Positions 23,287-38,674 of a stretch of 59,072 nt of DNA are shown here, piece by piece. The stretch's first letter is position 1; each line of letters starts with the position of its first letter. Below the pieces are notes generated by a model. The model was not told the origin of the DNA and searched no databases. It saw only the letters and a program-made list of their open reading frames with translations. The DNA is taken from positions 1 to 59,072 of the forward strand of contig JAUZRN010000040.1 of NCBI GenBank assembly GCA_030950375.1, written 5' to 3'. This stretch comes from Rhodothermus sp. Its GTDB lineage: Bacteria > Bacteroidota > Rhodothermia > Rhodothermales > Rhodothermaceae. The position numbers and the translations under genes are program-made.

Positions 23287-24621
23287 TCAACGTAATGGTA
23301 ACGTAATGCGAAACGTTGAGCCCTTTCCAGGTCGCGATTGTACCAGTGCAATTGCTCCTCCGTGATACTCCTCAATAATCCGTTTGGCCAGGCTGAGGCC
23401 CAGTCCCCATCCCCGTTTTTTGGTGCTGTACCCTGGCCGAAAGATATTCTTCCACTGACGCCGCTCGATCCCTCGCCCGTTATCTTGCACTTCAATCTGC
23501 ACCACGTTGCCCTGCACGCGCGCCCGCACGTCGATCCGGCCGTCTGGTCCCTCGATGGCGTCCAGTGCATTCTTGAGCAGGTTTTCGATCACCCATTCGA
23601 ACAGTTCGGCATTGAGCGGCAGGCGAATTTCTTCGGGAACCTGCACCGTCAACATCACCTGCTTGCCCAGACTGGGCATGCGGCGACGGATGTAGTCAGC
23701 CGTATTCTGGATAATTGGTGCCAGCGACTGCACTTCCAAGCGGGGCAGTGAACCGATCTCTGAAAAGCGCTGGGCCACCCGTTTCAGCCGTGCGATGTCT
23801 TTTTCGATCTCTTCAAGGGCTTCGCGCTGCTGATCGGGCCTCAGACTACGGGTACGTAACAGCTCGACCCAACCCATCAGGCTGGAAAGGGGCGTGCCGA
23901 GCTGGTGCGCCGCCTCCTTGGCCATCCCTATCCAGAGGCTTCGCTGCTCGCTACGTCGCACGTACGAAAAACCCAGGTATCCCACCAGAATGAATAGCCC
24001 CATAACAAAAAGCTGCACATAGGGAAACACCCGAAGCTGACGGATCAGCCGCGACTCGCCATAGTGAACGTACTGCACCAGCTCGGTATCGTCAAAGCGA
24101 ATCCGAATGGGAATGGGACGATGCACCTGATCCATCTGGGCCACCAGTTCACGCAAACGGGCAATGGCCTGTAGCGAATCGGAAGCCGACAGGCCGGCCA
24201 GCGAATCCGGTACAGGCACATTGCGCCAGAAGAGCGGGTGCAGGCCAGTCGAGTCGGTAATGATCGCGGGAATATCGAAGGCACCTTCGAGCACAATCTC
24301 GCTGGCAAGCGTTACGTCGGAAGTGGGCGGCATCGTACGCGCCCAGGCCAGTGCCGCCTGGTAGCGCACAGCATGCTCCTCATCGGTAGTCAGCTGCGCA
24401 AGCTGCTGCTCCAGCGCCTGAAATACGTCGATGTAAGGATTCACATGCTCGGTGGTAGCCAGTTGCTCCTGGGCGGCCGCCCATAGATTCACCAGAAACT
24501 CTTCCCGCTCCCGTAGCCGGTTGGCCAGCCAGTTGGTGTACGCAACCGAGGCGACAGCGATCGCCACGGCGGCGATCACCAGGCCCAGCTTCAGGTTCAC
24601 CGAAAGACGGTAAGCCTTCAT
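23287..24621 (-). CDS. Membrane sensor histidine kinase
   Basis: A 444-residue kinase with an N-terminal membrane helix (about 11-30), a helical exported sensor domain of about 165 residues, a second membrane helix (about 199-219), and a cytoplasmic kinase core. The H-box is KEAAHQLGTPLSSL with His239. The N-box ENLLKNALDAI, DNGRGI and GWGLGLSLAKRI complete the ATPase domain. No response regulator gene lies beside it, so it is an orphan in this window. ATG 24621 removes a non-conserved 25-residue extension. It converges on the sigma-like gene with a seven-base gap. Confidence 0.92.
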   Translation of the reverse strand: MKAYRLSVNLKLGLVIAAVAIAVASVAYTNWLANRLREREEFLVNLWAAAQEQLATTEHVNPYIDVFQALEQQLAQLTTDEEHAVRYQAALAWARTMPPTSDVTLASEIVLEGAFDIPAIITDSTGLHPLFWRNVPVPDSLAGLSASDSLQAIARLRELVAQMDQVHRPIPIRIRFDDTELVQYVHYGESRLIRQLRVFPYVQLFVMGLFILVGYLGFSYVRRSEQRSLWIGMAKEAAHQLGTPLSSLMGWVELLRTRSLRPDQQREALEEIEKDIARLKRVAQRFSEIGSLPRLEVQSLAPIIQNTADYIRRRMPSLGKQVMLTVQVPEEIRLPLNAELFEWVIENLLKNALDAIEGPDGRIDVRARVQGNVVQIEVQDNGRGIERRQWKNIFRPGYSTKKRGWGLGLSLAKRIIEEYHGGAIALVQSRPGKGSTFRITLPLR

Positions 24622-24762
24622 CACACAGGTCGTTCGGTTCGCAAAGAGACGCGCGCCTGTTCCAACCCCGAAATATGCTTCAAGCTCCGTACGCATCCAA
24701 CCGGACCGAGCCGCCGACTACGCGCAACATGCATACCGAAGCTGCCCGCTTCAGCAACCAAC

Positions 24763-26513: not shown

Positions 26514-28190
26514 TCAGGCTGACTCCAGTTCCTCGGCCTGTAGCACACGCGGGTAGCGAATCTGCTCCACAAGCGTCTGCACCTTCTTTGGCGGAGGCGG
26601 AGTGCGGAGCGATACGAGGATCGTCACAATGAAGTTCAGAATCATGCCGATCGTGCCCACGCCCTGTGCATTGATGCCCAGGAAGCTGCTCAGGATCGGC
26701 TCTTCGAGCCCCAGTACGCGATCGGCTCGCATGAGCACAATCAGCGTAAACGTAAAAATCAGGCCGGTCAGCATGCCAGCGATAGCACCTTCCTTGGTGC
26801 ACCGCTTCCAGAACACGCCCAGCACGATGATCGGGAAGAAGCTGGAGCAGGCCAGGCCGAAGGCAAAAGCCACCACCTCAGCCACAAAGCCCGGTGGGAA
26901 GATGCCCAGCAGGCCGGCGATGACAACACCGATGAAGATCATCACTCGGGCCACGGTCAGCTTCACATGGTCAGGGGCGCTCGGATTAATGATCTGCCCG
27001 TAGATGTCGTGGGCCATGGCCGAGCCAATCACCAACAGCAATCCCGATGCTGTCGAAAGCGCGGCCGCCAGACCACCGGCCGCCACCAGCCCGACCACCC
27101 AGGCCGACAGGTTGGCAATCTCGGGGGTGGCCAGCACGATGATATCGCGGTCGATCGTGCTGAGCAGGGCGGCAGCCGTCATGCCTTCACTCCATTCGCT
27201 TGCACGAATCAGCCCCGTCTGTGCCCAGTTCTGGACCCAGCTCAGGTCAAGCATGCCCGTCGGCCCCAGCTCGCTGAAGGCATTCAGGATGTAGTAGCGG
27301 GCGAACATGGCCACGGCTGGTGCCGTCAGATACAGCAGACCAATGAAAAACAGCGCCCAGAAGGCTGACCACCGCGCATCCACCACGCGCCGTACGGTAT
27401 AGAATCGGACGATCACGTGGGGTAACCCTGCCGTACCCGTCATCAGTGCAAGGGTCACGAAGAAGACATTCAGGAGGTCCCAGCTACCCTTAAAGGGTTG
27501 GCTGTAGAAATTGCCTACCAGCTCATACTGAAGCTGATCCAGCTGGGGAAGCACTTTTCCTAAGGCCAGTTGTGGCAGGGGGATGCCCGTCAAGGTGTAC
27601 GCAATGGCAAAGGCAGGAATCAGGTAGGCGATAATCAGCACAGTATACTGGGCTACCTGGGTCCAGGTGATGCCCTTCATGCCCCCCAGCACGGCGTAGA
27701 GCGAGACGATGGCCATACCAATGATCACGCCCCAGACGATGTCCACCTGCAGGAAGCGACTGAAGACCACGCCTACGCCGCGCATCTGCCCGGCTACGTA
27801 GGTGAACGAGACGAACAGCGCGGCGATGGCTGCCACCACCCGCGCCGCATTGGAATAGTAGCGCTCCCCTACGAAGTCGGGCACCGTAAACTTGCCAAAC
27901 TTACGCAGGAAGGGCGCCAATAGCACAGCCAGCAACACATAGCCGCCGGTCCATCCCATCAGATAAACAGCGCCGTCGTAGCCCATGAAGGAAATCAACC
28001 CAGCCATTGAGATAAAGCTGGCCGCGCTCATCCAGTCGGCAGCTACAGCCGCGCCGTTGGCGATGCTTGGAATGCCCTGACCGGCCACGTAAAAACCGGC
28101 CGTATCCTTTACACGACTCCAGATGGCGATCCCAATGTAGATTGCGAACGTAATCGCCACCCAGAAGAAAGTCCAACCAATAATACTCAT
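26514..28190 (-). CDS. Sodium/solute symporter large subunit (VC_2705 type, acetate-permease-like)
   Basis: A 558-residue SSS-family transporter with about 13 membrane helices. The first helix pair contains DTAGFYVAGQGIPSIANG and DWMSAASFISMAG, and the sodium-site region contains LMTGTAGLPHVIVRFYTV, a strong SSS signature also seen in ActP. The combination with a DUF4212 small subunit just upstream identifies the two-subunit VC_2705 branch. The likely substrate is acetate or another small carboxylate, inferred from the nearby acs gene. It is the last gene of the porin, DUF4212, symporter operon and lies 35 bases after the small subunit. Confidence 0.93.
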   Translation of the reverse strand: MSIIGWTFFWVAITFAIYIGIAIWSRVKDTAGFYVAGQGIPSIANGAAVAADWMSAASFISMAGLISFMGYDGAVYLMGWTGGYVLLAVLLAPFLRKFGKFTVPDFVGERYYSNAARVVAAIAALFVSFTYVAGQMRGVGVVFSRFLQVDIVWGVIIGMAIVSLYAVLGGMKGITWTQVAQYTVLIIAYLIPAFAIAYTLTGIPLPQLALGKVLPQLDQLQYELVGNFYSQPFKGSWDLLNVFFVTLALMTGTAGLPHVIVRFYTVRRVVDARWSAFWALFFIGLLYLTAPAVAMFARYYILNAFSELGPTGMLDLSWVQNWAQTGLIRASEWSEGMTAAALLSTIDRDIIVLATPEIANLSAWVVGLVAAGGLAAALSTASGLLLVIGSAMAHDIYGQIINPSAPDHVKLTVARVMIFIGVVIAGLLGIFPPGFVAEVVAFAFGLACSSFFPIIVLGVFWKRCTKEGAIAGMLTGLIFTFTLIVLMRADRVLGLEEPILSSFLGINAQGVGTIGMILNFIVTILVSLRTPPPPKKVQTLVEQIRYPRVLQAEELESA

Positions 28191-28225: not shown

Positions 28226-28516
28226 TCAATGCGCCTGTGAAGGTGGCGTCGTCGTGCCCGCATCTTCTTCGACGCCTGCTGCTCGGTCCAGCTTGCCCAT
28301 CATCACAGCATAGGCCAGAATCAGCAGGATGAAGATCATGATGCTGCCCTGCTGGGCCATCCAGAATCCCATCGGGACGCCCGCTATCTTGAGCGTATTC
28401 AGGGGTTCGACGAGAAAGATGCTGAGTACATACCCGACGATAAACCAGATGACCAGCAGCAAGGCGGTACGCTTTCGTACCTCGCGCCAGTACGTTTTGC
28501 GATCCATTTGCTCCAT
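28226..28516 (-). CDS. DUF4212 symporter small subunit
   Basis: A 96-residue protein with two membrane helices (about 17-36 and 55-74) flanked by charged ends. It starts with the DUF4212 pattern RKTYWREVRKRTALLLVIWF and has FLVEPLNTLKIAGVPMGFWMAQQGS between the helices. DUF4212 proteins are small partners of the VC_2705 type sodium/solute symporters, and the large subunit follows directly. ATG 28516 and 28507 are both possible starts. Confidence 0.93.
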   Translation of the reverse strand: MEQMDRKTYWREVRKRTALLLVIWFIVGYVLSIFLVEPLNTLKIAGVPMGFWMAQQGSIMIFILLILAYAVMMGKLDRAAGVEEDAGTTTPPSQAH

Positions 28517-28537: not shown

Positions 28538-29767
28538 TTAGAAAAACAGAAACACGGTGAAATTGCCTCGGATGTTGGTAGCCGTTTCTGTATCCCCGAT
28601 CGGTTTGTAGCGATCGTCAAAACGGCTGGCATAGGCAGCCGAGGTCACTTCCAGCTCAAAAGCAAAGCGAACGGGTCCGTGATTCAGGTTCAGCCGGGGG
28701 GCCAGCCGCCAGAGTTGCTTGATGTTGGGGCCTCGAGCGGCCGTACTCATGACGGCGCCCTCCAGATCACTGCTGGCACCCTGATTGACCAGGTAGCCAA
28801 TGAAAAGTCCGGGAGCTACCCGGCCGGCGCCATCAATGTCTACCCAGCCCGAAAGCACCTGGAGCGGTTTAAAAGCGGCCGCGTAGTAGTCATTTTCTCG
28901 GCCAGCCGCCGGCGCGTAGACGTAGCCACCTGTCATCAGATGGTCGGTCAGATCGCCCCCGTAGGTTACCTTACCCCGCAGCGTCGCTCCTTTCCCAGCC
29001 AGCGTGAAGTATCCCTGCAGCGCCCAGGCAAAGAAACGATCCCCGGTTGCAACAGGCCGCAGCGACTTCAGGTAGGCTCCTGCTCCCACCACACTGCCGC
29101 CCTGACTGAAAAGCTGGAGATGCGTATGGAGGGCCGGCAGCGCTGCCATCTGTTGCTGTTTGATTCCGGAAACCCCGTTGAAGCTGATATCCTTAAAGGC
29201 ATCGCGCTGCCAGGCCAGCGCTCCGATGAACCGAACATGCTGTCCTTTCAGGGTAGCCCGAAGTTGTGGCTGGCGGGCAAACGGCTGAAATGGCGCACCG
29301 GTTGTAGTCGCGACGGTGCGCGGAAAGGCCGCCAGGGTAAATAGCGGGGACCATTCCTGGCCAAAGAGTAACTCGGCCTGTTCCCATGCCAGGCGCACGA
29401 AGCCCCGCCGCAGGCGGAAAGTACTCTCAAGCCCGTTGTTGGGCCCGAAGAAGTCCGCCTCAAAATACCCTGTCACCTGGGCTCCCAGCGCCTGCGGCAG
29501 ATCACCGATATTCAGGCGCAGCCGGGAAAAGAATACAAAGGCACCAAAGTTGTCCGTTTCCGTTGCCTCCGATTTAGGCAGCGGAAACAGCAGGAACTCC
29601 CCCTCCCGTGCGGCTACCACCTGTCTTGTATCATAAAGATACTCGACCTTGAGAAAGCCGCTGAGCTTAAACGATTGCGCCCACAGCGTCAGGGGTGTGG
29701 CCAGTAACAACAGCAGTAGGCCGAAACCACGGCCTCGACCTGGCGTACGATGCAGTGTGTGCCTCAT
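28538..29767 (-). CDS. Outer-membrane porin-like beta-barrel protein
   Basis: A 409-residue protein with a signal peptide (about 1-30, ending LWAQ) and amphipathic strands through the whole length. It ends in Phe-Leu-Phe-Phe, the aromatic C-terminus expected for barrel insertion. N-terminal strands such as FKLSGFLKVEYLYD and the interior FFGPNNGLESTFRLRRGFVRL resemble Bacteroidota porins. It is probably the diffusion channel for the same substrate as the symporter. It is the first gene of the operon, with the strongest Shine-Dalgarno seen here and a highly structured leader upstream. Confidence 0.85.
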   Translation of the reverse strand: MRHTLHRTPGRGRGFGLLLLLLATPLTLWAQSFKLSGFLKVEYLYDTRQVVAAREGEFLLFPLPKSEATETDNFGAFVFFSRLRLNIGDLPQALGAQVTGYFEADFFGPNNGLESTFRLRRGFVRLAWEQAELLFGQEWSPLFTLAAFPRTVATTTGAPFQPFARQPQLRATLKGQHVRFIGALAWQRDAFKDISFNGVSGIKQQQMAALPALHTHLQLFSQGGSVVGAGAYLKSLRPVATGDRFFAWALQGYFTLAGKGATLRGKVTYGGDLTDHLMTGGYVYAPAAGRENDYYAAAFKPLQVLSGWVDIDGAGRVAPGLFIGYLVNQGASSDLEGAVMSTAARGPNIKQLWRLAPRLNLNHGPVRFAFELEVTSAAYASRFDDRYKPIGDTETATNIRGNFTVFLFF

Positions 29768-29886: not shown

Positions 29887-29946
29887 AAACGGCGCTCGGT
29901 TCGATGGTTGGTAGCCTGGCAACCGGGCGCCGTTTTGTATTTTTTT
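29887..29946 (+). terminator. Hairpin with T-run pointing toward acs
   Basis: A 14-pair stem (29887-29901 with 29921-29935, one mismatch) followed on the plus strand by TTTTGTATTTTTTTC, which reaches the acs stop codon. As a plus-strand terminator it has no upstream plus-strand gene. On the minus strand it is preceded by the A-run but followed by only three T, so its strength as an acs terminator is unclear. Confidence 0.6.
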
Positions 29947-31931
29947 CAGCGGTTGAGTCGGTTCTGCACCAGCTCTTCCACCACCGAAGGATCCGCCAGC
30001 GTGGACGTATCGCCCAGATCCCTGTACTCGTTGGCCGCAATCTTGCGCAGAATACGACGCATGATCTTCCCGGAGCGTGTCTTAGGAAGCGCCGGGGTAA
30101 ACTGCAGCAGGTCGATTGTGAAAATCGGCCCGAGCACACTCCGCACGTGTTGGATCAGCTCCTTGCGGAGCCCATCGCTGGGCTCGTAGCCTGCCTTTAG
30201 CGTCACAAAGGCATAGATACCCTGTCCTTTGATTTCGTGGGGATAGCCCACGACGGCCGCTTCAGCCACCGCTTCATGCAACACCAGAGCACTTTCGATC
30301 TCAGCCGTGCCCAGTCGATGGCCGGAAACGTTGATGACATCATCTACCCGTCCCACAATCCAGTAGTAGCCGTCTTCATCCCGACGCGCCCCATCACCCG
30401 TAAAGTACTTACCCGGAAAACGCGTGAAATAGGTCTCCACAAAGCGATCATGCGCCCTGTAAACTGTCCGCATCTGTCCGGGCCACGAGTCGAGAATGAC
30501 CAGCATCCCATCGGCCGAACCTTCCAGCACGTTTCCATCGTTGTCCACGATAGCGGGCCGCACGCCAAAGAACGGCAAGGTAGCCGAACCCGGCTTGAGC
30601 GGCGTGGCTCCCGGTAAGGGCGTGATCATGATCCCCCCGGTTTCCGTCTGCCACCAGGTGTCCACAATCGGACAGCGCTCTTCGCCGACCACCCGATAAT
30701 ACCAGAGCCAGGCCTCGGGATTGATCGGTTCACCCACCGTGCCTAGCAACCGAAGCGACTTTCGGCTTGTTTGCTTTACCCACGCATCTCCTTCGCGCAT
30801 GAGTGCCCGGATAGCCGTCGGCGAAGTGTACAGGATGTTCACCTGATACTTGTCGACCACCTGCCAGATGCGGGACGGATCCGGATAGGTCGGCGTTCCC
30901 TCAAAGAGCACTTCGGTCACCCCGTTGGCCAGCGGCCCATAGACGATATAACTGTGACCTGTTATCCAACCGATGTCCGCTGCACACCAGTAAACGTCTC
31001 CCTCGTGATAATCAAAGACGAACTGGTGCGTCAGCGAGGTATACACCAGATAGCCACCGGTTGTATGTACCACTCCTTTGGGCTTGCCGGTTGAGCCCGA
31101 AGTATAGAGGAAAAAGAGCGGATCTTCGGCATCCATCACCTCTGGCGGGCACTCGGACGCGACCGTCTGGATCTCTTCATGATACCAGCGATCGCGCCCC
31201 TCTACCCACGGAATGTCGCCACCTGTACGGCGTACCACCAGCACGGTCTTCACCTCAGGACAGCGCTCCAGCGCTTTGTCGGCATTGCGCTTAAGCGGCA
31301 CACGGCGTCCTGCACGAAGCCCTTCGTCGGCCGTGATCAGGTATGTCGCTTCGCCATCAAGGATACGGTCGGCCAGCGAATCGGGCGAAAAACCGGCAAA
31401 AACCACCGAGTGGATGGCCCCGATCCGCGCGCAGGCCAGCATGGCATAAATCGCTTCCGGGATCATGGGCAAATAGATGGTCACCCGATCGCCCTTCTTG
31501 ACCCCGTGCTTTTTAAGCACATTCGCCAACCGACAGACCTCTTCGTAGAGCTGACGATAGGTGATGGCCTTGCCCTTCTCGTTTGGATCGTCCGGCTCCC
31601 AGTAGAAGGCTACCTGATCTGCCCGTTTCTCCAGGTGCCGGTCAATGCAGTTATAGGCAGCATTCAGTTTGCCCCCCTCAAACCAGCGGATGTAGAGGTT
31701 CGAAGGATCGAACGAGGTGTTTTTGACGGTATGGAACGGTTCAAACCAGGTTATGCGCTGCGCCTGTTCGCGCCAAAAGCCCTCCGGATCTTTGATGGAG
31801 CGTTCGTACATTTCCCGATATTGCTCCATCGAACTGATGAAAGCCCGCTTGCGAAACGCTTCCGGCGGTTGAAAAACCAGGCCACGCCCCGAGTAGGCCG
31901 CGGTCGCATTGATCGATTCCTGAAGACCCAT
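29946..31931 (-). CDS. acs: Acetyl-CoA synthetase (AMP-forming)
   Basis: A 661-residue cytoplasmic enzyme that activates acetate with ATP and CoA. Landmarks in order: the N-terminal ACS segment with [17 protein letters not shown], the P-loop-like adenylation motif [33 protein letters not shown], the adenine motif [27 protein letters not shown], the hinge VSGHRLGT, and the C-terminal [11 protein letters not shown] with the catalytic lysine that is acetylated in Pat-regulated enzymes. Full length for the family. The promoter lies about 90 bases upstream, and the flanking genes (symporter operon on one side, signalling operon on the other) place it in an acetate island. Confidence 0.97.
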
Positions 31932-32022
31932 GGCTCCCTTCGGTTAATTATTCCTCTTAAAGAATAACTGATGGCTTGCGATGTTACCTCATCCCTTCCT
32001 TTCAGCAAGATAACCAACTTTA

Positions 32023-32051
32023 GTTATAAAAAAAATTCATGAGAGATGCAA
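32023..32051 (-). promoter_or_regulatory. Candidate promoter of acs
   Basis: Minus strand TTGCAT (32046-32051), a 17-base spacer and TATAAC (32023-32028), in AT-rich DNA. The leader would be about 85 bases and contains the inverted repeat TTATTC/GAATAA close to the ATG, a possible regulator site. Confidence 0.55.
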
Positions 32052-32089
32052 GAGGGCTTGAAATATTCTTTTACAGGAATAATTAAGAA

Positions 32090-33037
32090 TTACCTGACCG
32101 GTATCACCAGACGCAACCGGTGACCGTCAGCATCGCGCTGGACCCACAGATCGGCCTCATGCCAGGCCAGCACCTCTGCCAGCGCTAATGAAAAGTGCTG
32201 TCCTTTTAGCGGGAGCGTCTGTGCCAGCCACCGTTGCAATCGGCCCGGTGGCAAACGCTGCCCCTGCCATTGCACATCAACCCATACCAGACGCTTGCGT
32301 ACGGTGGCTGTAAGTCTGACGCCTTTTCCTTTACGGATAAACGGATGCAATTGGCGTCCTAAGCGCTCCCATAACTGTCTCCAGAGCTGACGGTCTGCGC
32401 GAACGATAGCGGTCGGCTGGTTTTGCTCCACCTGCACGTCCTGGATCTCCTGTGCGAGCGCCGCGGCCATAAGCTCAAGCAGCACTGCAACCGGTATGCG
32501 CTCCAGCGGCCAGTGAGCCTGCAGGTACCGGGTATAGGTCGCCACCGTCTGCTCCAACAACCGCGTCAGGGCTTCCGTCTGCTCCAGTATGATCTGTCGA
32601 AATTGTGTAGCCAGATCAGGCGCCATGTCAGGATAGGCGGTCATCGTTTCGATGGCTGCCCGAATGTTGGCTACCGGGTGTCGCAATCCCTCCAACAGTT
32701 GCTGTAATATCAGGGGCTGCCAGTCCCCTGTTCGTTCATAAGCGGGTTGCAGTTGCACTACAAAGCCCGCCGACGCCTCCAGGGGCCATGCCTGCACAGC
32801 CAGCAACTGGCCGGCATTGCCCCGCACATGACACATTTCGCCGGTGGGGGGCCAGGGCAGTCCGGGCAACAGCGCTTGCAGGCTATGCTCGGACTGATCT
32901 GGTTCCACCGGTAGTGCCAACCACTGCCGGGCTTTTTGATTGGCCCATATCGGCTTTCCTGCTGGATCACAGAGGATCAGTCCGACAGGCAACGCCTCCA
33001 GAGCCGCGGCCAGCCTGCTTATTTCCAGCGTCTTCAA
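32090..33037 (-). CDS. PAS + DHp protein with degenerate ATPase half (possible phosphotransfer protein)
   Basis: A 315-residue soluble protein. Residues about 10-95 form a PAS domain (ALPVGLILCDPAGKPIWANQKA). Residues about 108-175 are a histidine kinase dimerisation-like helix pair with His120 in LLEGLRHPVANIRAAIE. The rest aligns in length with a kinase ATPase domain, but the N-box asparagine, the DxGxG box and the GxGLG box are missing (the last reads LKGQHFSLALAEVL). This recalls the Spo0B/ChpT phosphotransferases, which keep the DHp helices and lose ATP binding. Its start overlaps the receiver gene stop by four bases, so the two are made together. The phosphotransfer role is inference. 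Confidence 0.75.
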   Translation of the reverse strand: MKTLEISRLAAALEALPVGLILCDPAGKPIWANQKARQWLALPVEPDQSEHSLQALLPGLPWPPTGEMCHVRGNAGQLLAVQAWPLEASAGFVVQLQPAYERTGDWQPLILQQLLEGLRHPVANIRAAIETMTAYPDMAPDLATQFRQIILEQTEALTRLLEQTVATYTRYLQAHWPLERIPVAVLLELMAAALAQEIQDVQVEQNQPTAIVRADRQLWRQLWERLGRQLHPFIRKGKGVRLTATVRKRLVWVDVQWQGQRLPPGRLQRWLAQTLPLKGQHFSLALAEVLAWHEADLWVQRDADGHRLRLVIPVR

Positions 33038-33432
33038 GGTTGTTCTGCGCGTCCAGATTGGTTCAACAAACTGCGAACGGTATCCATCACGTCACGAATG
33101 GCAAATGGCTTGATAATGTAGGCATCAGCACCCACAGCTTTTCCTTTTTCCAGGTCGGCTTCCCGGCCACGGGCTGTCACCAGGACTACCTTGACCGTGC
33201 GTCCTTTGGTACTGCTTTTAAGCTGTTGACACACCTCGAAACCACTGATGCCAGGGAGCATGACGTCGAGCAATACCAGGTCGGGCTGTACCTGCTGGCA
33301 GGCCGTCAGCGCCGCCTCACCATCTTCTACCACTGCGACCTGATAGCCTTCCTGCTCCATGAGAAAGCGCAACGAGAGGGCGATGCTGGGCTCGTCTTCC
33401 ACAATGAGGACATAGGGCTTCGGGCGCATCAT
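33034..33432 (-). CDS. Stand-alone CheY-like response regulator
   Basis: A 132-residue single receiver domain. The acidic pair lies in VEDEPS (Glu12/Asp13), the phosphoacceptor is Asp56 in LVLLDVMLPG, Thr86 is in LVTARG and Lys108 in YIIKPF. There is no DNA-binding or enzymatic output domain; the chain ends right after the fifth helix. It begins six bases after the stop of the CrbS-like kinase and overlaps the PAS-DHp gene, so it is the likely receiver for that kinase. Confidence 0.95.
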   Translation of the reverse strand: MMRPKPYVLIVEDEPSIALSLRFLMEQEGYQVAVVEDGEAALTACQQVQPDLVLLDVMLPGISGFEVCQQLKSSTKGRTVKVVLVTARGREADLEKGKAVGADAYIIKPFAIRDVMDTVRSLLNQSGRAEQP

Positions 33433-33438
33433 CGTCTG

Positions 33439-36198
33439 TCAGATATCCATTTTGGAAGTATCGCGCGTGTGTCTGGGGGCACTGTCAGACTCTGGCAAAC
33501 GCGGTAGGGCAAACGAAAACGTCGCGCCAGCACCGGGTTCGCTTTCGACCCAGATCCGGCCATGGTGATGCTGCACAATGCGCTGCGCAATGGCCAGCCC
33601 CAGTCCCGTGCCCGGTGGCCGCTTGCCGGTACTGGTATGCACCTGCCGGAATTTATCAAAAATGGTCGCTTGATCCTCCGGAGCAATACCCGGTCCGTTG
33701 TCTTCCACATCCACCCGTATCCGATCGGGTTCAAGCGTCAGTCGAATCCCGATACGACCGTCTTCCGGATGGCAAAATTTAACGGCATTCGACAGCAGGT
33801 TCAGCAGTACCTGTACTAGCTGATCTCGATCGCCCAGTACATAGCAGGGGGTTTCCGGAACGGAGACCGTCAATGCAATGTCGTTGAACTGCACATGTGG
33901 TTGAATGGCCTCGACGGCTTCTTCGATCACCTCCTGCATGCGCACGGGCTCCAGGTTCAATTCAACAGTGCCTGACTCCAGCTTCTGCAATGTCAGCACC
34001 TGGTTGATTAGCCGGGTCAGCCGCTCGGCTTCCTTGATGATGATGCCCAGAAATTCCTGTCGCTGCGTCTCGGGGAGCCCCGGATTGGCATGCATGATTT
34101 CGCTGAAAGCCCGAATCGACGTAAGCGGCGTACGCAATTCATGCGTGATCGTTGAAATGAACTCATCCTTGAGCCGGTCCAGTTCTTTCAGGCGCTCGTT
34201 GGCCGCCTGTAGCTCGCGCGTAGCCCGCTCCAGCTCGGCCGACTTGCGTTCCAGCTCATGGCTGTAGGCAATAACCTGCTGGGTTTCGTCCAGGATATCC
34301 ATGACCTCACGCAGGCTCAGGGGTTCTTCCTTGACCACCGAAGCAATCAGCACTCGGGCTGATGCCGAGCCAATGGCACCGGCCAGTAACCGCTCAGCAT
34401 GTTGCACGACTTGAGCGGTCGCCGTGACAGTATTGGCTCCCTGGGCCAGCACCGATCGCAGTGCTTCATCCGCCTGCTGCTTGCCCAGAAACCGCCGCAG
34501 TAACTGCTGCAGATCGGACACATAGGCGGTTCCGCGCCAGGTGGCCTCACCCGGCCGCTCTGAACGCCGAAACACATCCACAAAGGCCCGGGCCTGCAAC
34601 AGCTCTTCTACGCGCTGCTGCGTAAACAGGGACACGCCTACGTACAATCCGGCATTAAAGAGCAGGCTCCAGAACAGCGCATGCGAAACCGGATCGAATC
34701 CTTCCAGTCCGAATAACTGATAGGGGCGTAACCAGCGCAGTCCCCCAGGCCCTTCTTCAATAAAAGAAACCGGCAGCAACCCGGCATCGACCAGCGATGG
34801 AAGCGGTAGCGTATAGCCCCAGATCAGAAAACCGGCCAGCAGGCCACAGAGCGCGCCCGCCCGCGTTCCTCGCCGCCAGTACATGCCCCCCAGCAAAGCC
34901 GGCGCAAACTGGGCCACCGCAGCAAATGAAATCAACCCGATCGATACCAGCGCATAGGCGTGGGCAATGGCATGAAAGTAAAGGTAGCTCAGCACCAGCA
35001 CCAGCACGATTCCTCCACGGCGGATACCCAGCAGCAACCCTGTAAGTCGCCCGCGCTGTGCCAGCCGCAGCCACCGAATGCGCAACAGAATCGGCATGAT
35101 CAGGTCGTTGCTGATCATGGTGCTGAGTGCCACGGTGGCCACGATCACCATGCTGGTAGCCGCCGAGAATCCTCCGATAAAAGCCAGCAAGGCCAGAAGC
35201 TCCTGCCCGTGCGCCAGCGGTAGTGCCAGCACAAACGTATCGGCGTCGACCTGCCCCCCCGGAAAAGCCATGAGGCCGGCCAGTGCAATAGGAAGCACAA
35301 ACAGATTGATTAACCATAAATACAATGGAAATAACCAGATGGCCTTACGCAGGTGACGCTCATCCACATTTTCCACCACGGCGACCTGAAACTGACGGGG
35401 CAGAAACAGAATGGCCAGCATGGCCAGCAACGTCATCCAGAACCACTGACCATACGCACCCGGCCCTAAAGCCTCTTCCATGGTGAGCAACCGCCGGAAC
35501 TCCGGCCGGCTCAACGCTTGTCCGAACAGATCCGATGGCCCGTTGTACAGACCAAAGGTGACGAACAATCCAACCGCTATGAAGGCCGGCAACTTGACCA
35601 GCGATTCAAAAGCGATGGCAGCCACAAGCCCTTCATGACGCTCGGTGGCATCCAGATGCCGCGTTCCGAACAGGATGGAAAATAGCGCCAGCGCCAGGGT
35701 TACGTACAGGGCCGTATCGTCCAACAAATGCTCTGTCGCGCCCTGCAGCGGCTGTCCGCTCAGCACCTGGAAACTGATCGAGATGGCTTTGAGCTGCAGG
35801 GCAATATAAGGCACACCGCCTGTTACGGCGATGATGGTCACCAGGGCAGCCAGCCCACTGCTTTTGCCATAGCGCGAAGCGATAAAGTCCGCAATTGAGG
35901 TGATACGATAAACCTTGCTGATGCGAATCATTTTTCGCAGCACCATCCACCAGAGCACAGCTGCCAGGGTAGGTCCCAGGTAGATCGGTAGATAGCCCAC
36001 GCCACTGCTGGCTGCACGGCCTACGCTCCCGTAAAAGGTCCATGCCGTACAATAGACGGCCAGCGAAAGGGCGTAAATGTACGGGCTACTGATGACACTA
36101 CGTCCCCGCTCGGCCTGCCGATCGCCGTACATCGCAATGGCGAACAGCAGTCCGATATACAGCAGCGCCACGACGAAGATGAGCTCTCCCTGGAGCAT
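33439..36198 (-). CDS. Symporter-sensor histidine kinase fusion (CrbS/MxtR-like)
   Basis: A 919-residue hybrid. Residues about 1-500 are an SSS-family transporter domain with about 13 helices (start ELIFVVALLYIGLLFAIAMYGD; SIADFIASRYGKS). A STAC-like linker follows (about 540-640; LLRRFLGKQQADEAL, AERLLAGAIGSASARVLIASV), then a coiled coil, then the kinase core. His686 lies in TITHELRTPLTSI, with LLNLLSNAVKF, EDNGPGI and GTGLGLAIAQRI completing the ATPase domain. In Proteobacteria such CrbS/MxtR kinases sense acetate-related signals and control acs. The location beside acs supports the same role. It follows the small membrane protein gene by three bases. Confidence 0.92.
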   Translation of the reverse strand: MLQGELIFVVALLYIGLLFAIAMYGDRQAERGRSVISSPYIYALSLAVYCTAWTFYGSVGRAASSGVGYLPIYLGPTLAAVLWWMVLRKMIRISKVYRITSIADFIASRYGKSSGLAALVTIIAVTGGVPYIALQLKAISISFQVLSGQPLQGATEHLLDDTALYVTLALALFSILFGTRHLDATERHEGLVAAIAFESLVKLPAFIAVGLFVTFGLYNGPSDLFGQALSRPEFRRLLTMEEALGPGAYGQWFWMTLLAMLAILFLPRQFQVAVVENVDERHLRKAIWLFPLYLWLINLFVLPIALAGLMAFPGGQVDADTFVLALPLAHGQELLALLAFIGGFSAATSMVIVATVALSTMISNDLIMPILLRIRWLRLAQRGRLTGLLLGIRRGGIVLVLVLSYLYFHAIAHAYALVSIGLISFAAVAQFAPALLGGMYWRRGTRAGALCGLLAGFLIWGYTLPLPSLVDAGLLPVSFIEEGPGGLRWLRPYQLFGLEGFDPVSHALFWSLLFNAGLYVGVSLFTQQRVEELLQARAFVDVFRRSERPGEATWRGTAYVSDLQQLLRRFLGKQQADEALRSVLAQGANTVTATAQVVQHAERLLAGAIGSASARVLIASVVKEEPLSLREVMDILDETQQVIAYSHELERKSAELERATRELQAANERLKELDRLKDEFISTITHELRTPLTSIRAFSEIMHANPGLPETQRQEFLGIIIKEAERLTRLINQVLTLQKLESGTVELNLEPVRMQEVIEEAVEAIQPHVQFNDIALTVSVPETPCYVLGDRDQLVQVLLNLLSNAVKFCHPEDGRIGIRLTLEPDRIRVDVEDNGPGIAPEDQATIFDKFRQVHTSTGKRPPGTGLGLAIAQRIVQHHHGRIWVESEPGAGATFSFALPRLPESDSAPRHTRDTSKMDI

Positions 36199-36201
36199 GG
36201 C

Positions 36202-36408
36202 TCAGGAATTCTCTTCGGTGGGAGGAGAGCGACGCCCTTCCATCAACCAGATAAGCAGTCCGATCACCAGCACCCACACCCCGTACAGATACACGTACAG
36301 CACAGGCAGCCCCAGGATCAGGTATTCCCGGCTGAAGAGGGACAACAGGGGAAAATTCATCAGTAACAGGGCCATCGCAAAGAGGGCTGCCAGGCGTGCG
36401 CGCGTCAT
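36202..36408 (-). CDS. Small two-helix membrane protein linked to the symporter-kinase
   Basis: A 68-residue protein with two membrane helices (about 5-20 and 33-54) joined by a short loop containing SREYLILGLP, and a charged tail (EGRRSPPTEENS). The layout resembles the small proteins that accompany SSS transporters (for example DUF3311-type), but no family can be assigned with certainty. Its ATG overlaps the stop of the ArsR-type gene by four bases, and its stop is three bases before the symporter-kinase, so it may be a subunit of that sensor. Confidence 0.7.
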   Translation of the reverse strand: MTRARLAALFAMALLLMNFPLLSLFSREYLILGLPVLYVYLYGVWVLVIGLLIWLMEGRRSPPTEENS

Positions 36409-36755
36409 CGTTGCTTCAACGATCCATCTGTTCCGGTTTCTAAACTCCGACACAACAGCAAAAACAGGCCCGCCAGCGAAGGATCCGCCAGGCGATAGCG
36501 CACATGTACACCTTCGCGACGGCGTTCCACAAGTCCTTCACGGGCCAGCTGCCCCAGATGCTTGCTCACGTTAGGTTGTCGGATGCCCAGCGCATCGACC
36601 ATTTCCTGCACGCTCAGCTCGCCTCGGGTGCGCAACAGGTTCAGCAAACGCAGCCGCACCGGATCGCCCAGCACCCGTAGCCGACGCGCTGCCGATTCCA
36701 GCAAGGTCTCAGGTACCAGCGGAGCCGGTTCCACGGCACGAACCCGGGTTGTCAT
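36405..36755 (-). CDS. ArsR-family winged-helix regulator
   Basis: A 116-residue transcription factor. The winged HTH is clear: RLRVLGDPVRLRLLNLLRTRGELSVQEMVDALGIRQPNVSKHLGQL followed by the wing REGVHVRYRLAD. It lacks the ELCVCD metal-binding motif, so it probably responds to something other than metals, or to a protein partner. It is the first gene of the five-gene signalling operon, with Shine-Dalgarno GGAGG before the ATG. As the only DNA-binding protein of the operon, it is a candidate output or autoregulator. Confidence 0.9.
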   Translation of the reverse strand: MTTRVRAVEPAPLVPETLLESAARRLRVLGDPVRLRLLNLLRTRGELSVQEMVDALGIRQPNVSKHLGQLAREGLVERRREGVHVRYRLADPSLAGLFLLLCRSLETGTDGSLKQR

Positions 36756-36774: not shown

Positions 36775-36795
36775 GTTACTATCTTACAGCGTAAC
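36775..36795. promoter_or_regulatory. Possible operator between the ArsR-type gene and the exonuclease gene
   Basis: An interrupted inverted repeat GTTAC-N11-GTAAC centred in the 68-base divergent gap. It is a plausible binding site for the ArsR-type regulator, by position only. Confidence 0.3.
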
Positions 36796-36823
36796 GCGCC
36801 GAAAATCAAATGTTCAGGGCTTC

Positions 36824-38674
36824 ATGCCACTTTCTGGCCGCTTCTGGAAAACGTATGCCGTGTTGGCCTTGCTGGGGCTGTCGCTGCTGGCTATGCCTAA
36901 CCTGATCTGGTGGCTGAGTGCTTCCCCGTCGGAGCGCGCCTGGTTACTTGCCCGCTATCCGTTTCTACTGGTCCTGGTCGTGCTGGTGCTGGGCGGCATC
37001 TACGCCCTCTGGTACCACATCTACCAGATCCATATACGTCCAATAGAACAGCTTACCGACGCGCTCCACCAGGTGCTGGCCGGTCATCCGCTACCTCCCC
37101 TGCCCCGAGCTACCACCCAGGCACTACGCAAACTGCAAGAAGCCATTACAGCAGTGGTACCCCCTCAGCGTTTTCAGCATACTGCCGCGTCGGTCGGTCC
37201 CCTGCATCGCGAGCGCAACCTGTTGGCCACCCTGCTGGGTGAACTGCCCGAAGCCGTACTGGTATGCCGGACATCCGGCCAGATCCTTCTATATAACGAG
37301 GCAGCCCGCCGTCTGTTGGAGTCCCCGGATCATCCGGGCACCATCGGACTGGGACGCTCCATCTTTCACAGTCTGGACCGTGAGCTGATCGTTTTTGCCC
37401 TGGATGAACTGGCCTACCAGCTACGTCATCAGCAATCCCACCCGGAAGTCCACTTCGCCACCGTCCTGCCCTCAGGACGCTTGGTCCGTGTGCGCACCAC
37501 CCTGATTCGGGAAGAAAACGATCCTTTAGAAGGATTTATTTTGATCCTGACTCCCCTGGAACCGGCACCCCCTACCTTTGAAAACGTTCGGAGTGTCGAT
37601 CTACTTCAGGCATTGCGGGCGCGTCTGGCACAAGATGGAGTCTCGCTTCAACTTGAGAAAACGAGCGGCGCGCTCTGGGTTCAAGCACGTCTGCCGACCG
37701 TTTTCGAGATGCTCTACCGCCTGGCCTATCAGCTACACCGAGCAACGGCCTGTCTTCATCTGCAGGCCCGCACTGCCCGGGCAGACGGACGCGTACATCT
37801 GTGGCTTCAGCCATACGACAAACACCCGGCGGTTTCCGACCATCTGGCTTCGTACATACACGAAGCTTCTCTCCAGCGACTCCTTCGAGACCACCAGGCT
37901 AGCCTGCAGCTGGAGGCCGACACGCTGCATCTATCGTTCCCGGCCTCGTCTCCTCACACAGGGGCCGCCCGTGCGCTCCTATCCGGCCCATTTGTCCGCA
38001 AACGCCCGATTTATGCCGACCTCACCCTGCTTGAAACACTCGCAACGACCACACCACTCGACGACCGCCCACTGGACCACCTGATCTATACGGTTTTCGA
38101 CACCGAAACAACCGGCCTGCATCCCGAGCGGGGTGACGAGCTCATTGCGATCGGCGCCGTGCGCATTGTGGGTGGCCGCATCCGTCCCGAAGAAACCTTC
38201 GACCAGTTAATCAACCCGCACCGTCCCCTCTCACTCGATTCGGTGCGTGTACATGGCATCCAACCCATCCTGTTACAGGATAAGCCGAGTATTGAAGTCG
38301 TACTGCCCCGCTTTCACCGCTTTGTGGAGCATACGGTCCTGGTCGGACACAACGTGGCTTTCGATCTGCAGTTCATCCGTCAGAAAGAAAAAGCACTGGG
38401 CTTACGATTTGACCAGCCTGTGCTCGACACCATGCTCCTGGCGGCGGTTGTCGATCCGGAACGCTCGCACTATGGACTGGACGAGCTGGCGGCAGCCTTC
38501 GGGATTGAGCTCATCGGACGGCATTCCGCACTGGGAGATGCGCTCATTACGGCAGAACTGTTTCTGCGTCTATTGCCGCTACTAAAGCGGCGCGGGATTC
38601 ACACCTTGCGTCAGGCCCGCGAGGCTGCCCAGCAGACCCGTCTGGCTCACATGCATTATGGACGTATCTCTTGA
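36824..38674 (+). CDS. Membrane-tethered PAS/DnaQ-like 3'-5' exonuclease protein
   Basis: A 616-residue protein. Two membrane helices (about 9-29 and 44-66) are followed by a HAMP-like or linker stretch, a PAS domain (about 135-245; ELPEAVLVCRTSGQILLYNEAA), and a region of about 120 residues that resembles a histidine kinase ATPase domain without its key residues (WVQARLPTVFEMLYRLAYQLH). The C-terminal DEDDh exonuclease domain has Asp426/Glu428 in FDTETTGLHP, the GHNVAFDLQF motif, and HSALGDALITAEL. Proteins of this kind occur near DUF4212/SSS symporter loci in Proteobacteria, where their role is unclear. It is divergent from the ArsR-type operon, and its end overlaps the ParA-like gene by 19 bases. 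Confidence 0.88.
   Translation: MPLSGRFWKTYAVLALLGLSLLAMPNLIWWLSASPSERAWLLARYPFLLVLVVLVLGGIYALWYHIYQIHIRPIEQLTDALHQVLAGHPLPPLPRATTQALRKLQEAITAVVPPQRFQHTAASVGPLHRERNLLATLLGELPEAVLVCRTSGQILLYNEAARRLLESPDHPGTIGLGRSIFHSLDRELIVFALDELAYQLRHQQSHPEVHFATVLPSGRLVRVRTTLIREENDPLEGFILILTPLEPAPPTFENVRSVDLLQALRARLAQDGVSLQLEKTSGALWVQARLPTVFEMLYRLAYQLHRATACLHLQARTARADGRVHLWLQPYDKHPAVSDHLASYIHEASLQRLLRDHQASLQLEADTLHLSFPASSPHTGAARALLSGPFVRKRPIYADLTLLETLATTTPLDDRPLDHLIYTVFDTETTGLHPERGDELIAIGAVRIVGGRIRPEETFDQLINPHRPLSLDSVRVHGIQPILLQDKPSIEVVLPRFHRFVEHTVLVGHNVAFDLQFIRQKEKALGLRFDQPVLDTMLLAAVVDPERSHYGLDELAAAFGIELIGRHSALGDALITAELFLRLLPLLKRRGIHTLRQAREAAQQTRLAHMHYGRIS

Follow-up and report, generated by a model that had tools for sequence, protein, structure and literature searches.

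Organization of the Acetate-Linked Gene Cluster

The window analysed here, that is, the whole stretch of 59,072 nucleotides, is a contig of a 3.03 Mb Rhodothermus sp. genome that is 99.6% complete. It harbors five minus-strand ORFs, located exactly where a preliminary description had placed them, and their coordinates confirmed both the proposed gene order and the proposed gaps (-4, 3, 6, and -4 bp). The operon and the genes that surround it are the following:

36824..38674, plus strand: divergently oriented TM-PAS-(DHp lost)-CA-like-DEDDh exonuclease
36781..36809, minus strand: candidate promoter of the five-gene operon, TTGATT-17-TAAGAT (called by eye; conserved in the four Rhodothermus genomes compared)
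36405..36755, minus strand: ArsR/SmtB-type winged-helix regulator (ATG start, GGAGG upstream; HTH_5 4.4e-12, NF033788 8.8e-25)
36202..36408, minus strand: small membrane protein with two helices, resembling CbrX in size, topology, and translational coupling, found upstream of SLC5-STAC kinases across phyla
33439..36198, minus strand: SLC5-STAC-DHp-CA histidine kinase with no C-terminal receiver (SSF, HisKA, and HATPase_c; intact catalytic motifs)
33034..33432, minus strand: single-domain receiver (Response_reg 5.9e-29; 132 aa; no output domain)
32090..33037, minus strand: PAS-DHp-CA pseudo-histidine kinase (PAS_8 and a weak HisKA; Glu116 replaces the acceptor His; no N-box Asn, G1, or G2)
29946..31931, minus strand: acs, acetate-CoA ligase (TIGR02188)
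28538..29767, minus strand: predicted outer-membrane porin-like protein, kept in the acetate clusters of relatives
28226..28516, minus strand: DUF4212 small symporter subunit
26514..28190, minus strand: sodium:solute symporter, partner of DUF4212 and candidate acetate importer

The link between this module and acs, which had been proposed earlier, was found in the window itself: acs is the next gene, beginning 158 bp after the end of the pseudokinase gene, with a candidate promoter of its own in between. A consensus promoter scan of both intergenic regions retrieved neither a promoter nor a terminator; the operon and acs promoters given here are by-eye calls combined with conservation.

The comparison of gene order in relatives, suggested as a check in the preliminary description, revealed that the five-gene order is identical in four further Rhodothermus genomes (L001, G003, G008, and G050), where the operon is followed by acs, the porin-like gene, DUF4212, and the sodium:solute symporter. 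Relatives lacking the linkage to acs, which would have spoken against the proposal, were found only locally, in three genomes of the same taxonomic order. In three such genomes (L062, L063, and L064), the kinase-receiver-pseudokinase module lies 3' of a ptsI-like gene, whose PEP-utilising enzyme domains were checked in L062 only, and not near acs.

Two other features of these neighborhoods can be mentioned. Another histidine kinase is encoded at positions 23287-24696 of the window, downstream of the acetate cluster. Moreover, a putative cNMP-CBS-DUF294 nucleotidyltransferase lies beside the symporter in several relatives (L005:5203-7011, L167:11261-13072, and L070:4161-6140), and none was noticed among the genes listed for the window.

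The Sensor Kinase and the Small Membrane Protein

The kinase is 919 aa long and ends after the HATPase_c domain; according to the alignment, its H, N, G1, and G2 boxes are intact. It is 95% identical to that of a Rhodothermus MAG, the nearest named relative. The Pfam scan did not retrieve any STAC match; kinase residues 9-615 could be aligned with the solved structure of the SLC5-STAC part of CbrA (10ed; 4.8e-73). Together with the SSF, HisKA, and HATPase_c matches, this alignment bears out the fusion read from the sequence at the outset, and the protein has the arrangement of the SLC5-STAC kinase family, with an SLC5 transporter domain followed by STAC and then by the kinase.

The preliminary description had also called the kinase CrbS-like. 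This holds for its SLC5-STAC architecture and for its link to acs; the C-terminal REC and a CrbR ortholog are lacking. The characterised CrbS is a hybrid kinase (PMC5715377) whose fused REC is dispensable for acs expression (PMC5436829). An unlinked CrbR ortholog was looked for in the 99.6% complete genome and none was found: its four NarL/LuxR-type regulators do not exceed 33% identity to CrbRs, which share 44-98% identity among themselves.

The small protein did not give any useful match in Pfam, NCBIfam, or PDB, the only hit being a weak phrog of unknown function, and it was assigned by size, topology, and position. In Pseudomonas, CbrX is complexed with the SLC5 domain (PMC13022988), and we infer that the small protein is the counterpart of CbrX. 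A related arrangement was seen by eye in an Azoarcus MAG (L006:9727-12918), where an SLC5-STAC protein with a small upstream protein has an EAL-like (c-di-GMP) C-terminus and no kinase.

The Single-Domain Receiver

The receiver lacks an output domain, as had been noticed: its 132 residues match Response_reg only, and its active site is intact, with the conserved acidic pair, the phospho-acceptor Asp, the Ser/Thr, and the Lys. A single-domain receiver adjoins the SLC5-STAC kinase in 29 out of 30 loci of the phylum Bacteroidota, and acs is the next recognised gene in 17 of these 30. In most Bacteroidota, acs lies directly 3' of the receiver, with neither ArsR nor pseudokinase; this implies that the receiver must have another target in those organisms. 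The same receiver type occurs in Chloroflexota, a Kiloniellaceae MAG, a betaproteobacterial MAG, and Desulfobacterales. It adjoins the kinase in the Chloroflexota and betaproteobacterial loci as well; in the Desulfobacterales genome the receiver-fusion pair and a kinase piece are on different contigs.

A tree was constructed with 18 stand-alone receivers, the RECs of the window's genome, the CrbS-fused RECs, and the CrbR RECs. All 18 stand-alone receivers fall into one clade (100/97), apart from both the CrbS-fused and the CrbR RECs. Two possible origins were rejected on this basis, i.e., a detached CrbS receiver, since fused and stand-alone RECs belong to separate clades, and a truncated CrbR. 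Because the single-domain receiver represents a separate, phylum-spanning clade, the kinase-receiver half of the operon is, according to these sequence comparisons, an old parallel branch extending over several phyla and not a rewired CrbS. The idea of a rewired acetate switch, put forward in the preliminary description, was thus not borne out, as the output-less receiver is widespread, forms its own clade, and the characterised CrbS is itself a hybrid.

The Pseudokinase and the Exonuclease

The last gene of the operon had been described as coding for a PAS-DHp protein able to receive the phosphoryl group. The PAS domain and the DHp fold were recovered; the phospho-acceptor His was not, Glu116 occupying its place. 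The alignment of 16 relatives of this protein with four true kinases revealed that the acceptor His is replaced in all 16, by Glu in most of them and by Asn or Arg in the rest, and that the N-box Asn, G1, and G2 are absent throughout. His120, which may be the residue previously taken for the acceptor, aligns with the Thr of HELRTP, and other Rhodothermus species have an Arg there. Phosphotransfer to this protein is therefore contradicted by the sequence, because the acceptor His is absent. Thus, the protein lacks the acceptor His on DHp helix 1 that characterises histidine phosphotransfer proteins of the Spo0B/ChpT type, and it has the features of a DivL-type pseudo-histidine kinase, namely, a kinase fold in which the acceptor His is replaced.

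The AlphaFold2 model of the pseudokinase (pLDDT 80.4) comprises a PAS domain, a DHp hairpin, and a CA-like domain, and its best Foldseek matches are histidine kinases, including DivL. The most conserved part of the protein is DHp helix 1 (residues 116-138), where 13 out of 23 positions are invariant, compared with about 19% for PAS and CA. In kinase-receiver complexes, the face of DHp helix 1 is the surface on which the receiver docks.

Furthermore, in Chloroflexota, family f13 of the same class, Balneolia, Desulfobacterales, and the betaproteobacterial MAG, a single protein of about 700 residues joins TM, PAS, pseudokinase, and DEDDh exonuclease, and its gene mostly comes directly after that of the receiver. 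Compared with the Chloroflexota fusion (L005), the exonuclease of the window aligns to positions 63-256 and 495-716, being devoid of the DHp stretch, and the pseudokinase of the window aligns to 240-476. The two Rhodothermus genes, taken together, correspond to one fused protein elsewhere, which suggests that pseudokinase and divergent exonuclease work together. The receiver lies directly upstream of the pseudokinase or of its exonuclease fusion in Rhodothermus, three genomes of the same order, family f13, Balneolia, Chloroflexota, Desulfobacterales, and the betaproteobacterial MAG. Three genomes of the same order (family f2) possess the pseudokinase and lack the DEDDh exonuclease; thus, the exonuclease is not an obligatory partner.

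The ArsR-Type Regulator and the acs Upstream Region

The region between the operon and acs contains three further elements:

32064..32081, minus strand: upstream palindrome TATTCCTGTAAAAGAATA, candidate ArsR operator 1
32023..32051, minus strand: candidate acs promoter TTGCAT-17-TATAAC (called by eye; block conserved in five Rhodothermus genomes)
31949..31966, minus strand: downstream palindrome TATTCTTTAAGAGGAATA, candidate ArsR operator 2 (115 bp away from operator 1)

The two TATTC-N8-GAATA palindromes flank the candidate acs promoter, one upstream and one downstream. They are the only two perfect copies in the 3.03 Mb, where about 0.9 would be expected from base composition. The pair is kept in five Rhodothermus genomes at a distance of 115-116 bp (about 11 helical turns), and much of the intervening sequence has changed. 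Their core equals the SqrR site, ATTC-N8-GAAT (PMC9774250); by eye, the conserved palindrome is unlike the ACTU sequences of PMC5715377. Within this order, two further ArsR genes are also preceded by motifs of the TATTC-N8-GAATA type, and one of the two genes is beside a sulfur-transport gene.

The operon ArsR is confined to the Rhodothermus copies of the operon; the ArsRs of these copies constitute a moderately supported group (93/85) that is distinct from two groups of paralogs. In another member of the genus (G151), acs is present (92%), and the kinase, the ArsR ortholog, and the motif are all absent; the three f2 genomes possess kinase, receiver, and pseudokinase, and they lack both the operon ArsR and the motif at acs. 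This pattern implies that the motif tracks ArsR and not the kinase arm, in a co-occurrence that covers one genus, the entire module having been lost together in one of its members (G151). The operon ArsR, the DNA-binding arm suggested in the preliminary description, hence gains independent support from the two conserved candidate operators: it probably binds both acs sites, and its family and the layout of the sites lead us to infer that it represses acs.

As in the SqrR/BigR type, the protein is an ArsR/SmtB winged helix and a putative ATTC-N8-GAAT operator is located near the target promoter. The two conserved sensing cysteines of SqrR/BigR are lacking, the operon ArsRs having one Cys only, and no inducer site could be recognised. 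A metal-sensing ArsR was rejected by inspection, the metal-site cysteines of ArsR being absent, and so was autoregulation through this palindrome, since no motif lies upstream of arsR.

Upstream of acs in three genomes of the same order (G034, G013, and G127; loci L124, L125, and L126), other conserved palindrome-like sequences were observed, of the ATTAC/ATTGC..GTAAT type and TTACCAAATGGTAATATAAGGAG, so that acs may answer to another regulator there. One paralog, which shares about 50% identity with the operon ArsR (G000:C12:23723-24007, L138), has a CxxxC pattern absent from the operon copy and lies near YeeE/YedE-like and metallo-hydrolase genes; by eye, it is probably a sulfur-responsive regulator.

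Possible Scenarios for the Output of the Module

In our main reading, to which we assign a probability of about 0.5, the locus would encode an acetate-linked sensor module with two arms, one leading from the kinase through the receiver and its docking on the pseudokinase to a partner, and the other consisting of ArsR at two acs operators. Sequence and genome comparison support its parts, the replacement of the acceptor His, the clade formed by the receivers, the fusion, and the candidate operators with their ArsR co-occurrence. In the first and ancient arm, the SLC5-STAC kinase, with the CbrX-like hairpin subunit, would sense a transported carboxylate or its flux and would phosphorylate its dedicated receiver, as the intact motifs and the adjacency of the genes suggest. 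The phosphorylated receiver would then dock on the DHp face of the pseudokinase with no phosphotransfer. Caulobacter DivL reads DivK~P (PMC4211667), and by analogy a readout of the DivL-DivK kind is the likeliest here. The pseudokinase might in turn act on a partner, for which the likeliest candidate is the PAS-DEDDh exonuclease, which is fused to it elsewhere and is its divergent neighbor in Rhodothermus; an output through the exonuclease or another partner is weakly indicated. In the second arm, a genus-level addition, ArsR would bind the two TATTC-N8-GAATA sites about 11 helical turns apart and control acs, most likely repressing it by looping or roadblock. A link between the two arms is possible.

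Carried one step further, the first arm might be a two-component system with a nuclease output, in which acetate sensing by SLC5-STAC, relayed by the receiver docking on the pseudokinase, would switch the DEDDh exonuclease and so control acetate genes at the post-transcriptional or nucleotide level; Rhodothermus would have split the pseudokinase from the exonuclease and added a transcriptional ArsR arm. We advance this version only tentatively.

The preliminary description had envisaged two routes out of the receiver. The one through the DHp protein amounts to a Spo0F/Spo0B-like phosphorelay from the kinase to the receiver, the DHp protein, and an unlinked regulator. A stand-alone receiver next to a DHp protein with a degenerate ATPase domain does resemble the Spo0F and Spo0B anatomy, and the modeled protein folds as a kinase core; however, with no acceptor His in any of the 16 members and the sole nearby His at a position that is Arg in other Rhodothermus species, such a relay is highly improbable. 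The other route is a single linear switch, where the sensing of acetate would make the pseudokinase or the receiver bind ArsR and take it off the acs operators. All the genes form one operon in five Rhodothermus genomes, the whole set, operators included, is jointly missing in G151, and an ArsR with no recognisable metal site would need another input. We nevertheless consider this switch doubtful, since kinase and receiver work without ArsR in all other lineages, the literature searched gave no ArsR controlled by a receiver or a pseudokinase, and the sequences carry no sign of an interface.

Alternatively, the receiver might mainly act on the kinase, serve as a sink for phosphate, or target the symporter or the enzyme encoded by acs, with the pseudokinase only tuning the kinase by heterodimerisation. 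This would agree with the position of acs directly 3' of the receiver in most Bacteroidota and with the dispensable fused REC of CrbS, whose deletion can raise acs expression (PMC5436829); it is unlikely, as it leaves unexplained the near-constant adjacency of the receiver and the pseudokinase-exonuclease in other lineages. Finally, the real partner of the kinase and regulator of acs could be a DNA-binding response regulator that is encoded elsewhere in the genome and is no ortholog of CrbR. The genome contains 37 REC matches, several with output domains, and the locus numbers of crbS, crbR, and acs of P. fluorescens are widely separated (PMC5715377). We regard this as quite unlikely, given the absence of a CrbR ortholog from the genome and conserved candidate operators that match an ArsR-type site and not ACTU.

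Comparison with Known Systems

The two-arm module depicted above bears on several questions. The known acetate switch, CrbS/R, has been described for Proteobacteria, and the Rhodothermus operon belongs to an older-looking branch spanning several phyla, whose receiver has no DNA-binding domain and frequently lies beside a dead kinase that is often fused to an exonuclease. No earlier description of this SLC5-STAC kinase-receiver branch was found in the open-licence literature, which is weak evidence of absence; the design, old and widespread, seems to be unstudied, the SLC5-STAC sensor systems themselves being known. The operon thus offers a concrete test of how an output-less receiver can act in metabolism; moreover, the two phased ArsR-type candidate operators at acs yield a prediction, open to direct testing, on a regulator in which no metal site can be recognised, and the neighborhood suggests a role for the DnaQ-like nuclease genes found in acetate clusters.

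With CrbS/CrbR (MxtR/ErdR) of Gammaproteobacteria, the module shares the SLC5-STAC-DHp-CA kinase and the tie to acs and to the DUF4212/SSS symporter. CrbS, however, is a hybrid with its own REC, and the LuxR-type CrbR acts at ACTU, whereas in Rhodothermus the REC is a separate protein from a different clade, a CrbR ortholog is missing, and the candidate operators are of the ArsR type. In CbrX-CbrA/CbrB of Pseudomonas, an SLC5-STAC kinase with no fused REC is likewise preceded by a small two-helix protein that is translationally coupled to it; that system uses CbrB, a sigma54 activator, and has histidine as its substrate, whereas in Rhodothermus a single-domain receiver and acetate-linked genes are found.

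Concerning the transcriptional arm, the ArsR/SmtB repressors SqrR, BigR, and YgaV are homologous in the winged helix and recognise an ATTC-N8-GAAT operator; these repressors use cysteines to sense reactive sulfur, and the genes under their control are sulfide genes, whereas the Rhodothermus ArsR has one cysteine and its candidate sites are at acs. As for the receiver, Spo0F-Spo0B likewise places a stand-alone receiver beside a DHp-CA protein with a dead ATPase, but the Rhodothermus DHp protein has no acceptor His. In DivK-DivL of Caulobacter, a single-domain receiver is coupled with a PAS-containing pseudo-histidine kinase that also lacks the acceptor His. DivL keeps its ATP boxes and controls CckA, whereas in the Rhodothermus protein these boxes are gone, its relatives carry a DEDDh exonuclease, and the docking of the receiver is a prediction.
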